Below are positions 10,890 to 41,009 of a stretch of 41,009 nt of DNA, piece by piece (position 1 is the stretch's first letter; every line of letters starts with the position of its first letter). Made by a program: the position numbers and the translations under genes. Source of the DNA: a virus; the IMG/VR virus record IMGVR_UViG_3300020215_000091, positions 1 through 41,009 of that record; one strand, written 5' to 3'. The notes below the pieces were generated by a model, which saw only the letters and a program-made list of their open reading frames with translations, searched no databases and was not told the DNA's origin.

Positions 10890-10972
10890 CGAACCCAAAA
10901 GAAACCGCGAGAGCCCCTTGGAGGACCCTCGCGGTAGTCACAAGGCTTCCCGGCCGTTGTGGAGAAATTCAT
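10886..10972 (-). CDS. 28-codon leader peptide ORF of the late operon
   Basis: ATG at 10972 follows GGAG by six bases. The peptide starts MNFSTTAGKPCDYREG and ends FFWVR. Its coding sequence passes right through the hairpin of the terminator at 10897-10935, and its TGA overlaps the ATG of the next gene. The ribosome site and ATG lie inside a hairpin (10946-11000). This arrangement resembles a leader peptide of an attenuator. It could also simply be a very small structural gene. Confidence 0.5.
   Translation of the reverse strand: MNFSTTAGKPCDYREGPPRGSRGFFWVR
10897..10935 (-). terminator. Intrinsic terminator in the late leader
   Basis: On the minus strand ACCGCGAG pairs with CTCGCGGT around a GC-rich loop, followed at once by TTTCTTTT. 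It stands between the late promoter and the first late gene, so it would block late transcription unless bypassed. Confidence 0.7.
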
Positions 10973-20547: not shown

Positions 20548-20741
20548 TGAAGGATCTCCTGGGCCTTCACGCCGCAGAGCCTGATCAAGATAAGCTGGCG
20601 GCGGATTTCGCGGCGGAGGGCGACGTCTTCAATGCGGCGATTCACGATATCGACGCATTTGTCGGCGGCGACTTGCATTGTCAGGACCTCGAGGGAAGCG
20701 AGGGTTTCTTTCTTCTTGGGGCGGCCGATGGCGGAGGTCAT
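20544..20741 (-). CDS. Hypothetical helical protein, 65 aa
   Basis: Begins MTSAIGRPKKKETLASLEVL; basic N-terminus then helices (VALRREIRRQLILIRLCG). ATGA overlaps with both neighbours. A small DNA-binding or adaptor protein is plausible; no family recognised. Confidence 0.6.
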   Translation of the reverse strand: MTSAIGRPKKKETLASLEVLTMQVAADKCVDIVNRRIEDVALRREIRRQLILIRLCGVKAQEILQ

Positions 20742-21061
20742 GACCGGCCCTCGGCTTTGGCGATGGCCACTTTCAGCGCGTTTCGCCAGTCGGCGTTCCG
20801 CATCTGAGTGTTATAGTCCTGAGCGGCAATCCACTCGAACGCCTGCTTCGCTGCCTCCAACAGCTCCGGCGCGGCGGCGATCAGGGCGGCGTTGGCCAAT
20901 GCTTCCACATAGCGTTCTGCATTGTTCACGCCATCCAGACGGTCATGTACGTCTGCTAGGATCGCGTCTTCTTCGTTCCTAATGGTGATTCCGAACGAAC
21001 GGCCACCATCTGAAACTTTCCACGGCCCCGGTGTGTGCTTCACTTCGGTCTTCGTGCTCAT
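20738..21061 (-). CDS. TPGPW-motif phage protein, first gene after the leader
   Basis: 107 aa from ATG 21061, with GGAAAGGGAG upstream; an upstream extension runs through the terminator and is not used. HTPGPWKVSDGG, then AERYVEALANAALIAAAPELLEA, is a widely distributed phage hypothetical family. It is the first gene downstream of the tandem terminators, so its expression should depend on read-through. Function unknown. Confidence 0.7.
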   Translation of the reverse strand: MSTKTEVKHTPGPWKVSDGGRSFGITIRNEEDAILADVHDRLDGVNNAERYVEALANAALIAAAPELLEAAKQAFEWIAAQDYNTQMRNADWRNALKVAIAKAEGRS

Positions 21062-21077
21062 TTCTCCCTTTCCGGCC

Positions 21078-21123
21078 AATAAAAAAGGCCCTGTCGTTAC
21101 GCCGAAGGGCGCAAGACAGAGCC
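21078..21123 (-). terminator. Second of two tandem terminators in the early leader
   Basis: On the minus strand GGCTCTGTC pairs with GACAGGGCC (one mismatch), with an inner CGCC/GGCG stem, and TTTTTTATT follows. It ends 16 bases before the ATG at 21061. Confidence 0.75.
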
Positions 21124-21168
21124 AATAAAAAAGCTCTAGCAAGACACCTTTCGGTGTCCTACTAGAGC
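21124..21168 (-). terminator. First of two tandem terminators in the early leader
   Basis: On the minus strand GCTCTAG and GACACC pair with GGTGTC and CTAGAGC around a GAAA loop, and six T follow directly. Its 5' arm is also the 3' arm of a longer helix with 21257-21281, so the two folds exclude each other. Confidence 0.8.
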
Positions 21169-21281
21169 GTCTTACTTTTTCGTTTTCTTAACGCCAGCTA
21201 CCCCGCTTTTGGCGGGTAAAACTGGCGGGGTCGACGGGGTTCGTACCGCCGACTTCCGAAAAAGTAGGGCTCTAGTAGGAC
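21156..21281 (-). promoter_or_regulatory. Candidate antiterminator of the early leader
   Basis: Perfect 13-base inverted repeat GCTCTAGTAGGAC (21269-21281, plus strand) and GTCCTACTAGAGC (21156-21168). It is extended by CGAAAAAGTAGG against CTTACTTTTTCG to about 25 pairs with a small internal loop. Between the arms are two more stems, GCCAG/CTGGC around a C-rich/G-rich hairpin, and GTCG-CGG/CCG-CGAC. When this helix forms, the 5' arm of the first terminator is occupied. Confidence 0.65.
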
Positions 21282-21415
21282 GTATTCAGACCGACGCGGA
21301 CCGAACCGGGGGTCGTGGCGGACCGTAGGGAAACGAGCCTCGCGTCGGCTTTGACTTGGCCGAAAGGCTGATAAGAGGAAACGCCACGTTCCCGGTTCAT
21401 ATTCACGCTGATCTT
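21169..21415 (-). promoter_or_regulatory. Structured leader region without coding sequence
   Basis: About 250 bases between the Zn-ribbon gene and the terminators hold no convincing gene on either strand. Besides the antiterminator arm, an 8-base stem CCGACGCG/CGCGTCGG spans 21291-21347. The unusual density of stems suggests a sensing RNA, a processing site or an anti-termination signal acting on RNA polymerase, like HK022 put. Confidence 0.5.
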
Positions 21416-21565
21416 CTATACCTTTTTCTTCTTCTTGTCAACAGCCGTTTTCGGCTGATCCCACCGCGCGGACTTGCACTTCGGGCAGATCCGCACGTCT
21501 CGCTTGCGCGGCGTCCACCTGTGGCCGCAGCGCTTACAATCCAATTCCGTGATTTTGACTTCCAT
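21416..21565 (-). CDS. 49-aa zinc-ribbon protein, first gene of the early operon
   Basis: MEVKITELDCKRCGHRWTPR followed by ICPKCKSARW is a clean rubredoxin-like zinc ribbon (CxxC...CxxC), with a Lys-rich tail KKKKKV. The ATG is seven bases from a -10 box, so a transcript from that promoter would be nearly or fully leaderless. As the first product of the early operon it could act on the leader RNA or on RNA polymerase; this is inference from position. Confidence 0.75.
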   Translation of the reverse strand: MEVKITELDCKRCGHRWTPRKRDVRICPKCKSARWDQPKTAVDKKKKKV

Positions 21566-21572
21566 ACCTAAA

Positions 21573-21601
21573 AGTATACCTAACGGTGAACCCGTAGTCA
21601 A
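21573..21601 (-). promoter_or_regulatory. Early promoter P1
   Basis: On the minus strand TTGACT (21596-21601) and TATACT (21573-21578) are 17 bases apart, near-ideal for sigma-70. The start codon of the Zn-ribbon gene begins seven bases after the -10 box. The segment AGGTATACTTTTAGGTATG is nearly identical to that at P2. Confidence 0.75.
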
Positions 21602-22749
21602 GTTGAAAGGACCGGATTCCCAATAAAGGAGCACCGGGTTAACACCGTCTGTTTCCGGCCGTTATAGATTGAGTGTTCCTTGATGGTCCCCTTGAGCTGC
21701 ACGGGCTCGTTGTCCGAAGCGTCGAAGCCCTTGGCGGTAAACCAGACGAATTCGTTGTTATCTGAATCGACCATCGAGACCGCAGCCATCGGACCAAACG
21801 CCGATTCAAAACGGCGTATGCGCTTTATCGTTAGATTAAACACTCGGCGCTCTTTGACTTGTCCGACCCAATTCGATTCACCGGCCGGGCGCTCCAATGT
21901 CTTGGGTTCGGTTTCCCGATCGTATGCATTGATGGCCGATACGATGATGCCGAAAACCTTGCTGTCGACTCCGATGCCAGAGAAGGCCAGGCGCATATTG
22001 TGGTAATAGTCATTCGCTGAATCGATCGTCTTCGACCATTCCAAAACGCGAAGCGCTTTTTCCTTGTCACAATCCTGTACGGGCAAAACGTCTTCTGGCT
22101 TGCGAAATACAGACAGGTGTGCGCTGACCCTACCAGCCGTCGAGAGAAACCCAGTTTCTTCCGCTTTTTTTCTGCTTACATAGCCGTACTGGCGCACGGC
22201 GCATGCCGAAAGAGTCAGAATGTACTCGAAATCATGAATCCTTTCGCCGCGCCCACGATACCCGCCCTCGCCTCCGAGGGCATCGTCTGAAAAAAGATAG
22301 AAGTACGTGAGAACGCGCTCGACGTCGTAACCCATGAAGTCAATCAGACACGCCGTACCAACCTGAATGAACTCGCCGGAGGCGTTCCGTAGCAGCAACG
22401 TCTTCTTTCTAAGCCTTGGCTTCTTGCAATGGTCGCAGACGAAACGCGTTCTATATATCACGGGCAGCTCCATTGCCCTGAACGCCGGGGCCTTCTTTAC
22501 GAGATTTTCTTCACCGACACGGTCTAGCGCAGCGACAAACTCATAATCGGCATACTTGAGAACGGATATTGATACGGTCACGTTGGTTTCGTCTATCACG
22601 CACTCGTGACCATGATCGTCCTTTGTCGTCCTTATTTCCCGCTCTCCAATTACGAGCTCGGGCCTTGGAAGCCCAAGCTTATCGGCTTTCTTGCGGAGCT
22701 TTGTCAGTCTCGCTTCAACCTCAGATATACATGCCGTCGGAATCTTCAT
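21598..22749 (-). CDS. Zinc-knuckle plus OB-like DNA-binding protein of mobile elements
   Basis: 383 aa from ATG 22749. RFVCDHCKKPRLRKKTLLL and FIQVGTACLIDFMGYD near residues 110-150 form a four-cysteine zinc site typical of a large family in ICEs, plasmids and phages. The C-terminus has NWVGQVKERRVFNLTI...VQLKGTIKEHSIYNGRKQT, an OB-like strand pattern. A DNA replication or recombination role is likely; no enzymatic motif seen. Base composition is less GC-rich than its neighbours, which suggests transfer. Its stop overlaps the -35 of P1. Confidence 0.7.
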   Translation of the reverse strand: MKIPTACISEVEARLTKLRKKADKLGLPRPELVIGEREIRTTKDDHGHECVIDETNVTVSISVLKYADYEFVAALDRVGEENLVKKAPAFRAMELPVIYRTRFVCDHCKKPRLRKKTLLLRNASGEFIQVGTACLIDFMGYDVERVLTYFYLFSDDALGGEGGYRGRGERIHDFEYILTLSACAVRQYGYVSRKKAEETGFLSTAGRVSAHLSVFRKPEDVLPVQDCDKEKALRVLEWSKTIDSANDYYHNMRLAFSGIGVDSKVFGIIVSAINAYDRETEPKTLERPAGESNWVGQVKERRVFNLTIKRIRRFESAFGPMAAVSMVDSDNNEFVWFTAKGFDASDNEPVQLKGTIKEHSIYNGRKQTVLTRCSFIGNPVLST

Positions 22750-22756
22750 ACTTACA

Positions 22757-22785
22757 AGTATACCTATAGGTAATACTCTTTGCAA
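22757..22785 (-). promoter_or_regulatory. Early promoter P2 with perfect dyad
   Basis: On the minus strand TTGCAA (22780-22785) and TATACT (22757-22762), spacing 17. TACCTATAGGTA (22761-22772) is a perfect 12-base palindrome overlapping the -10. The ATG lies seven bases downstream of the -10, as at P1. Confidence 0.7.
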
Positions 22786-24764: not shown

Positions 24765-24792
24765 ATTATACACTCCTAACAGAACTTATCAA
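24765..24792 (-). promoter_or_regulatory. Proximal promoter of the ImmA gene
   Basis: On the minus strand TTGATA (24787-24792) and TATAAT (24765-24770), spacing 16. The start codon is four bases from the -10 box, so its transcript would begin within or at the ATG, reminiscent of the leaderless lambda cI mRNA from pRM. Confidence 0.65.
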
Positions 24793-40471: not shown

Positions 40472-41009
40472 TAGGCGTTAAAACTCACTCTCGGTTTTAG
40501 CTCCGGGGAGCCGTATATTTCATGAAGCTTCGCCAGGTTCCCTTCAATGTCCTGGCCGTTTCCGAATACCGTCACGCGATGGGCGGCCGCCTCGTCGTTT
40601 CCGAGGTAGACCATCGTCTTCATCGTGGCCAAGGGAATGAGGACGAGCCGGTCGAACGGTTCAGGGATATCCAGGGTCGCGTTGGGCGAGCCCGTCGCCG
40701 GCATCGTCGGGTGCTTCCAGTAGCGGAAATTCACAAGATCGCCATTTTCGGATGCAGTCGCATATTTGTTGAAAATCAGGTATCCGGCGAATTTCGTGTA
40801 TTCGGTCGGATATCCCGTCATGGCCGTTTCAATGCCCTTCGGGTACTTCCGATCCCACTCTTGGGGCGTCAAGTATTTGATGCGATTTCCGGAGTCCGGC
40901 TGAATAAAGCTTTCGCGGTCCTCGCGCTGCATATCCGAGCCAGCGCTCGGGGTTGTGAGCGATGAGATCAGGTAACGGTAATTATTCGTCGAAAGTGTGA
41001 CGATGCCGA
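40471..41009 (-). CDS. SU10-type head-tail adaptor protein, 3' part (split by contig ends)
   Basis: This is the continuation of the gene that starts at base 308. The frame is open to the right end of the window because the terminal 127 bases duplicate the left end. The unique part here (40471-40882) encodes the last 136 residues, including the YWKHPTMPATG motif and a helical segment with PLATMKTMVYLGN typical of the adaptor family. The stop TAA overlaps the ATG of the nozzle-like gene by one base (TAATG), so the two are probably translationally coupled. An internal ATG at 40932 is not the real start. Confidence 0.8.
   Translation of the reverse strand, partial: GIVTLSTNNYRYLISSLTTPSAGSDMQREDRESFIQPDSGNRIKYLTPQEWDRKYPKGIETAMTGYPTEYTKFAGYLIFNKYATASENGDLVNFRYWKHPTMPATGSPNATLDIPEPFDRLVLIPLATMKTMVYLGNDEAAAHRVTVFGNGQDIEGNLAKLHEIYGSPELKPRVSFNA
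40883..41009. repeat. Terminal direct repeat, right copy
   Basis: Exact copy of bases 1-127. Joining 40882 to 1 restores an uninterrupted 239-codon gene on the minus strand. A real short terminal repeat, as in T7-like phages, is less likely because the repeat falls inside a coding sequence, not next to the terminase genes. Confidence 0.95.

Follow-up and report, generated by a model that had tools for sequence, protein, structure and literature searches.

In the trp and his attenuators, regions 2 and 3 of the leader RNA pair to form an antiterminator, regions 3 and 4 pair to form a terminator, and a terminating ribosome favors the terminator. The phage leader described here resembles these systems in containing three strands, the middle one of which is common to both helices, and a short upstream open frame, of ambiguous coding signal, that ends within the first strand. 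Unlike the trp and his leaders, it is located in a phage, in front of an operon for DNA metabolism, and its putative peptide lacks a regulatory codon run; furthermore, the arms of its long helix lie 100 nt apart, two extra hairpins are present, and a second terminator follows the first one.

The put RNAs of phage HK022 cause processive readthrough via the zinc-binding domain of the beta' subunit of RNA polymerase. These RNAs, which measure ~70 nt and consist of two stem-loops, have a processive effect on RNA polymerase (PMC9378689); lambda N and HK022 put, the familiar examples of early-gene control in lambdoid phages, both operate by processive antitermination (PMC6256539, PMC9378689). Like put, the present leader is a structured RNA at the head of an early phage operon, with terminators downstream, but its element, ~130 nt long and three-way, has a closing helix of 23 bp and is in direct competition with a terminator. 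An earlier note on this DNA had named an antitermination RNA such as HK022 put as one possible identity of the element; the size and the shape, the two features compared (130 nt compared to ~70 nt and two stem-loops), do not favor that identity.

Several other RNA-based controls have been described in phages and prophages. As outlined in PMC4825925, the P4 immunity RNA pairs with an upstream segment, seqA, and a downstream segment, seqC, causing premature termination; in the present leader, likewise, one segment (B) can pair with a segment on either side, A upstream and A' downstream, the arrangement given in that outline for seqA, the CI RNA and seqC. Unlike what is outlined there for P4, however, the downstream pairing here is itself an intrinsic terminator, a trans-acting RNA is only hypothetical, and the leader has no sequence or Rfam match. 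In the Gifsy-1 prophage, the leader RNA isrK has a small ORF of 45 codons and an intrinsic terminator with partial readthrough (PMC4825925), and the present leader also combines an intrinsic terminator with a possible small ORF; however, the short isrK RNA activates translation of the read-through mRNA, and the sections of that article dealing with isrK describe no competition between a terminator and an antiterminator. Prophages of Clostridioides difficile (PhiCD119-like) carry c-di-GMP riboswitches in their genes (PMC3649979), which, like the present element, are leader RNAs in prophage-type genes but belong to a known aptamer class, whereas no known aptamer is matched here. Finally, a broad survey of bacterial premature terminators revealed diverse, largely uncharacterized attenuators, with phages absent from its main text (PMC2965389).

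Genome organization and the zinc-ribbon gene

The IMG/VR virus record IMGVR_UViG_3300020215_000091 consists of 41,009 bases, all of which were analyzed (hereafter, the window). Its ends are an exact direct repeat of 127 bases (1-127 and 40883-41009), so that the record is probably a complete, circularly assembled genome of ~40.9 kb. The recognizable genes are on the minus strand, where an M78 (ImmA-like) peptidase, an integrase, a phrog_2319 protein and the zinc-ribbon gene are followed by the leader, then by an operon encoding, in order, a phrog_1273 protein, a transglycosylase-like protein, an Erf annealing protein, a YqaJ recombinase and a replication-initiation-like protein, and then by the terminase and head genes. 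The operon opens with the phrog_1273 gene (20738..21061, minus strand; 107 aa), which starts at ATG 21061 and has the Shine-Dalgarno sequence GGGAG. A strong promoter-like site, TTGATA-16-TATAAT (11 of 12 positions), is located at 24765-24792, directly before the M78 peptidase gene, and a 14-pair hairpin followed by TTCTTTT (10904-10935, minus strand) is a possible terminator near the boundary after the terminase. The best tblastn matches of the 395-aa phrog_2319 protein (21598-22785) include relatives with ~28-30% identity; the relatives among these best matches are mostly large Aeromonas phages, along with many Vibrio phage records.

The gene immediately upstream of the leader (21416..21565, minus strand, stop codon TAG) encodes a zinc-ribbon protein of 49 aa, MEVKITELDCKRCGHRWTPRKRDVRICPKCKSARWDQPKTAVDKKKKKV, which produces only weak, general zinc-ribbon matches, below the cut-off, in PHROGs and Pfam. 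Its relatives were found in IMG/VR viral loci (64) and in GTDB genomes (15). The family shares the motif C-x-R-C-G-H-x-W-x-P-R...R-I-C-P-K-C-K-S and is common in phages as well as in bacterial and archaeal MAGs.

Just upstream of the zinc-ribbon ATG, there is a candidate promoter, TTGACT-17-TATACT (21573..21601, minus strand), with 10 of 12 consensus matches, an assignment that consists in the consensus match only. It is the sole promoter-like match in 20700-21800, compared to a mean of 0.3 in shuffled sequences, and transcription from it would yield a nearly leaderless zinc-ribbon mRNA. A possible operator is apparent within 21573-21605, where the -35 and -10 elements enclose an imperfect palindrome, CTACGG-GTTCA-CCGTTAG, and a direct repeat, AGGTATAC/AGGTATGG, is located around the start.

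Three strands and two terminators in the leader

The leader comprises 354 bases of the minus strand, from the zinc-ribbon stop codon (21418-21416) to ATG 21061. In its first part (21288..21415), folding predicts an upstream structured domain, a long stem-loop, for which an alternative crossing helix of 8 Watson-Crick pairs (21348-21341 with 21298-21291) can be drawn; judging by eye, this helix appears to be a pseudoknot form. The domain is followed by strand A, GTCCTACTAGAGC (21269..21281), the 5' arm of the antiterminator, which is the perfect complement of strand B (21156..21168). This 13-bp perfect inverted repeat (21281-21269 with 21168-21156), its extension to about 25 pairs, further stems between its arms, the double role of its second arm, and the tandem terminators had all been pointed out in the earlier note, and all these features are present, except that the extension reaches 23 pairs: the 13 pairs are joined, across a CC/AGAC internal loop, by 10 Watson-Crick pairs between TACTTTTTCG (21257..21266) and CGAAAAAGTA (21173..21182). 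The stems between the arms are two predicted hairpins, H1 (21230..21253) and H2 (21192..21227).

Strand B is both the 3' arm of the antiterminator and the 5' arm of an intrinsic terminator, T1 (21127..21168), with a 16-bp stem, a GAAA loop and a TTTTTT tract, located 72 nt upstream of ATG 21061. The T1 hairpin (21168-21133; 16 pairs, -28.5 kcal/mol), the 3' arm of which we denote A' (21148-21133), is followed by TTTTTTATTGGC. The same 12 bases form the tail of the second terminator, T2 (21081..21123, also with TTTTTT; hairpin 21123-21087, -26.4 kcal/mol), and lie 13 nt from the ATG. The six-base match CGCTCT, which resembles boxA and precedes the GAAA-loop stem of T1, is not significant in 350 nt; a tRNA-like element was rejected as well.

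The A:B helix is not a chance occurrence. Nowhere else in the 41-kb window do exact inverted repeats of 13 bp occur within 300 nt, and when the leader was dinucleotide-shuffled 20,000 times, 30 of the shuffled sequences contained an exact inverted repeat of at least 13 bases, even though membership in a terminator arm was not required. When terminator-like hairpins were surveyed in the window and ~165 loci (1.85 Mb, both strands counted), the alternative upstream partner of T1 ranked best among 219 such hairpins, with a score of 33 compared to 27 for the next one. Against dinucleotide shuffles, the fold of the whole leader has a z-score of -8.7, the segment from A to B of -10.5, the segment from A to T1 of -8.4, and the upstream 133 nt (21415-21283) of -4.3; the terminators themselves contribute to these high z-scores, so the scores alone do not show a switch.

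Predicted competition between the antiterminator and the first terminator

The terminator and antiterminator helices are mutually exclusive, with strand B common to both. In the segment 21282-21127, the fold with A:B forced has an energy of -75.0 kcal/mol and the fold with B:A' forced -75.9 kcal/mol, a difference of less than 1 kcal/mol, and the findpath saddle lies ~4 kcal/mol above the bare antiterminator. In minimum-energy folds of the growing transcript, the A:B helix is fully formed once the 3' end has reached 21156 and is kept up to 21135; T1 prevails from 21133, when its last pairs form. In these computed folds, the long helix forms first in the growing transcript and is nearly equal in energy to T1. 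Given that these are nearest-neighbor energies, calculated without pseudoknots, real kinetics or RNA polymerase, we infer, rather than observe, that the leader is antiterminated by default. When A is masked, as it would be by a ribosome, T1 forms.

Strands A and A' differ at 2 of 13 positions, and both changes keep the pairing with B via G-U, so that all 13 positions of A and of A' pair with B. This relationship fits what a three-strand switch needs; a recent duplication could produce the same.

On balance, we interpret the leader of this phage replication and recombination operon as a transcription attenuator in which B switches between A and A', and consider its layout likely to be functional, at close to an even chance. 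The reading that we narrowly prefer is that of a conditional terminator that forms if A is occupied, the trigger and the use of the switch being our extrapolation. Transcription would start at the candidate promoter at 21601 and proceed through the zinc-ribbon mRNA into the leader. Strand A would emerge first and pair with B once the latter is made, forming a long antiterminator with two hairpins as its cap, so that T1 would lack its 5' arm and be read through. If, instead, A is occupied or held elsewhere, B would pair with A' and T1 would form. The most likely occupant of A would be a ribosome finishing the leader frame of 42-44 codons, the stop codon of which is within A, and the next candidate would be a factor that binds the structured domain upstream. 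T2 would be passed either through its leakiness or with the help of a separate antitermination factor.

Of the two designs that the earlier note had read into this layout, the attenuator agrees with the exclusive helices and their near-equal energies, whereas for a riboswitch, the searches returned no Rfam family and no homolog of the leader. If the attenuator interpretation is correct, a local bistable switch in front of a phage replication operon would mean that phages can gate an operon with a leader RNA in the manner of bacterial biosynthetic operons, a prospect that is at present based on one sequence with no relatives found in the searched collections.

The second terminator and alternative explanations

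The main weakness of the attenuator reading is T2. Competition of the terminators with the long helix, as originally proposed, holds for T1 but does not extend to T2, which stays intact when A:B is forced and accordingly forms in either state; no alternative partner of comparable strength for the T2 arms was found. As T2 has no antiterminator of its own, a switch confined to T1 would be insufficient to open the operon, and the 13 nt between the T2 tail and the ATG leave hardly any room for a promoter of the first operon gene. Either T2 is leaky, or it is passed by a separate antitermination mechanism, or both terminators serve as insulation.

Processive antitermination of the lambda N/nut or HK022 put kind would account directly for the passage of T2 and for tandem terminators right before the operon. 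Under this scenario, which we consider unlikely, by default, the immediate-early transcript ends at T1 and T2, both of which are passed by RNA polymerase once it has been modified at the leader; the modifier would be an RNA element or a phage protein such as the zinc ribbon, with the A:B helix as part of the loading RNA. The zinc-ribbon gene is the first one after the candidate promoter, and put requires no protein factor (PMC9378689). However, put RNAs, at ~70 nt with two stem-loops, are unlike the leader element, no nut/boxB element could be established, the zinc ribbon has weak and general zinc-ribbon matches only, and the exact match of A to the T1 arm is left unexplained.

Also unlikely, in our assessment, is ordinary insulation, whereby the tandem terminators separate the establishment module from the next operon and A:B is a stable hairpin or a leftover of duplication that does not switch. 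Insulation would be useful here, with the recognizable genes on a common strand and, upstream at 24792, a strong site resembling a promoter (11 of 12 positions), and A and A' resemble copies of each other; but the first operon gene would then have no visible promoter (13 nt from the T2 tail to the ATG), and neither the exact complementarity to a terminator arm nor the near-equal energies would be expected.

RNA immunity of the P4 kind, with a released leader piece containing B that binds A in trans in the lysogen, so that B in cis forms T1 and the lytic operon is turned off, is improbable: B has two complementary strands, A and A', like the P4 RNA with seqA and seqC as outlined in PMC4825925, and the genome carries integrase and ImmA-like M78 genes, but Rfam yields no match to a phage regulatory RNA, the strands recur nowhere else in the genome, and B, in a released piece that is itself hypothetical, would have to escape its own partners in cis.

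Searches for relatives of the leader

No homolog of the leader was found by blastn in phages (INPHARED) and plasmids (PLSDB) or by nhmmer and blastn in the zinc-ribbon loci, and none was detected in the IMG/VR and GTDB searches, collections that may omit records very near the window. Searches of viral and genome contigs via the first operon gene and via the zinc-ribbon relatives retrieved no leader relative either, and with the 395-aa phrog_2319 protein, the terminase and Erf as queries, no close relatives were found. A search with the exact antiterminator pattern gave no match; the repeated terminator-tail pattern occurs in 18 contigs, none of which, on folding, contains a similar leader with paired terminators. 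A single-sequence covariance model, run on the loci and on 50 viral records, recovered the window only, plus weak matches, a weak negative given the low power of such a model. The best of these weak matches (L028:3887-3951, 22.5 bits, E 0.019) covers the two inner hairpins only and is likely due to chance.

At gathering scores, no Rfam family matches the leader, phage regulatory RNAs included. The small RNAs ncS54 and Spot 42 were rejected as far below the cut-off (best ncS54 match, 17.9 bits compared to 43); the sub-threshold ncS54 match aligns to T1 and T2, a generic resemblance of double terminators. No second copy of the A and B strands was found elsewhere in the genome. The zinc-ribbon protein, which had been put forward as a candidate ligand, is a guess in that role: its family is common in phages (64 viral loci), and no similar RNA was found adjacent to its relatives. 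In a crude ORF scan, many members of the family are directly followed by another gene, which means that the leader does not regularly accompany the zinc-ribbon gene.

A possible leader open reading frame

About 350 bases of the leader had been thought to have no coding role; this is uncertain, as a 44-codon open frame (21406-21272) extends over the initial 38% of it. The possible leader ORF (21272..21406, minus strand) comprises 44 codons from GTG 21406 or 42 codons from ATG 21400, which are located, respectively, 9 nt and 15 nt past the zinc-ribbon stop codon and in frame with the zinc-ribbon gene. The stop codon of the ORF, TAG 21274-21272, falls within strand A, so that a ribosome at the stop would cover A and, with A masked, T1 would form. 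A frame placed in this manner occurs in 2.1% of shuffles. The codon score exceeds those of 98.5% of stop-free mononucleotide shuffles and is matched by 24% of the stop-free stretches read out of frame in real genes, whereas only 6.5% of in-frame stretches score lower; the codon signal is, therefore, ambiguous. The Shine-Dalgarno sequence is weak, no homologs of the putative peptide, VNMNRERGVSSYQPFGQVKADARLVSLRSATTPGSVRVGLNTSY, were found in the searches for relatives, and no regulatory codon run is seen in it by eye.

Control by a ribosome reading this ORF is attractive but unproven. In its full form, a translation-sensing RNA switch of a temperate phage, in which a ribosome finishing the small ORF blocks the antiterminator and shuts the replication operon, it appears unlikely. 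If the leader ORF does matter, the decision would be tied to translation, and if translation sensing is real, the phage would read the translation capacity of the host before committing.

Readthrough of the zinc-ribbon TAG would fuse the leader ORF (21272-21418 region) to the zinc-ribbon gene, giving a protein of ~97 aa, a curiosity. TAG ends 2 of the 35 genes counted.
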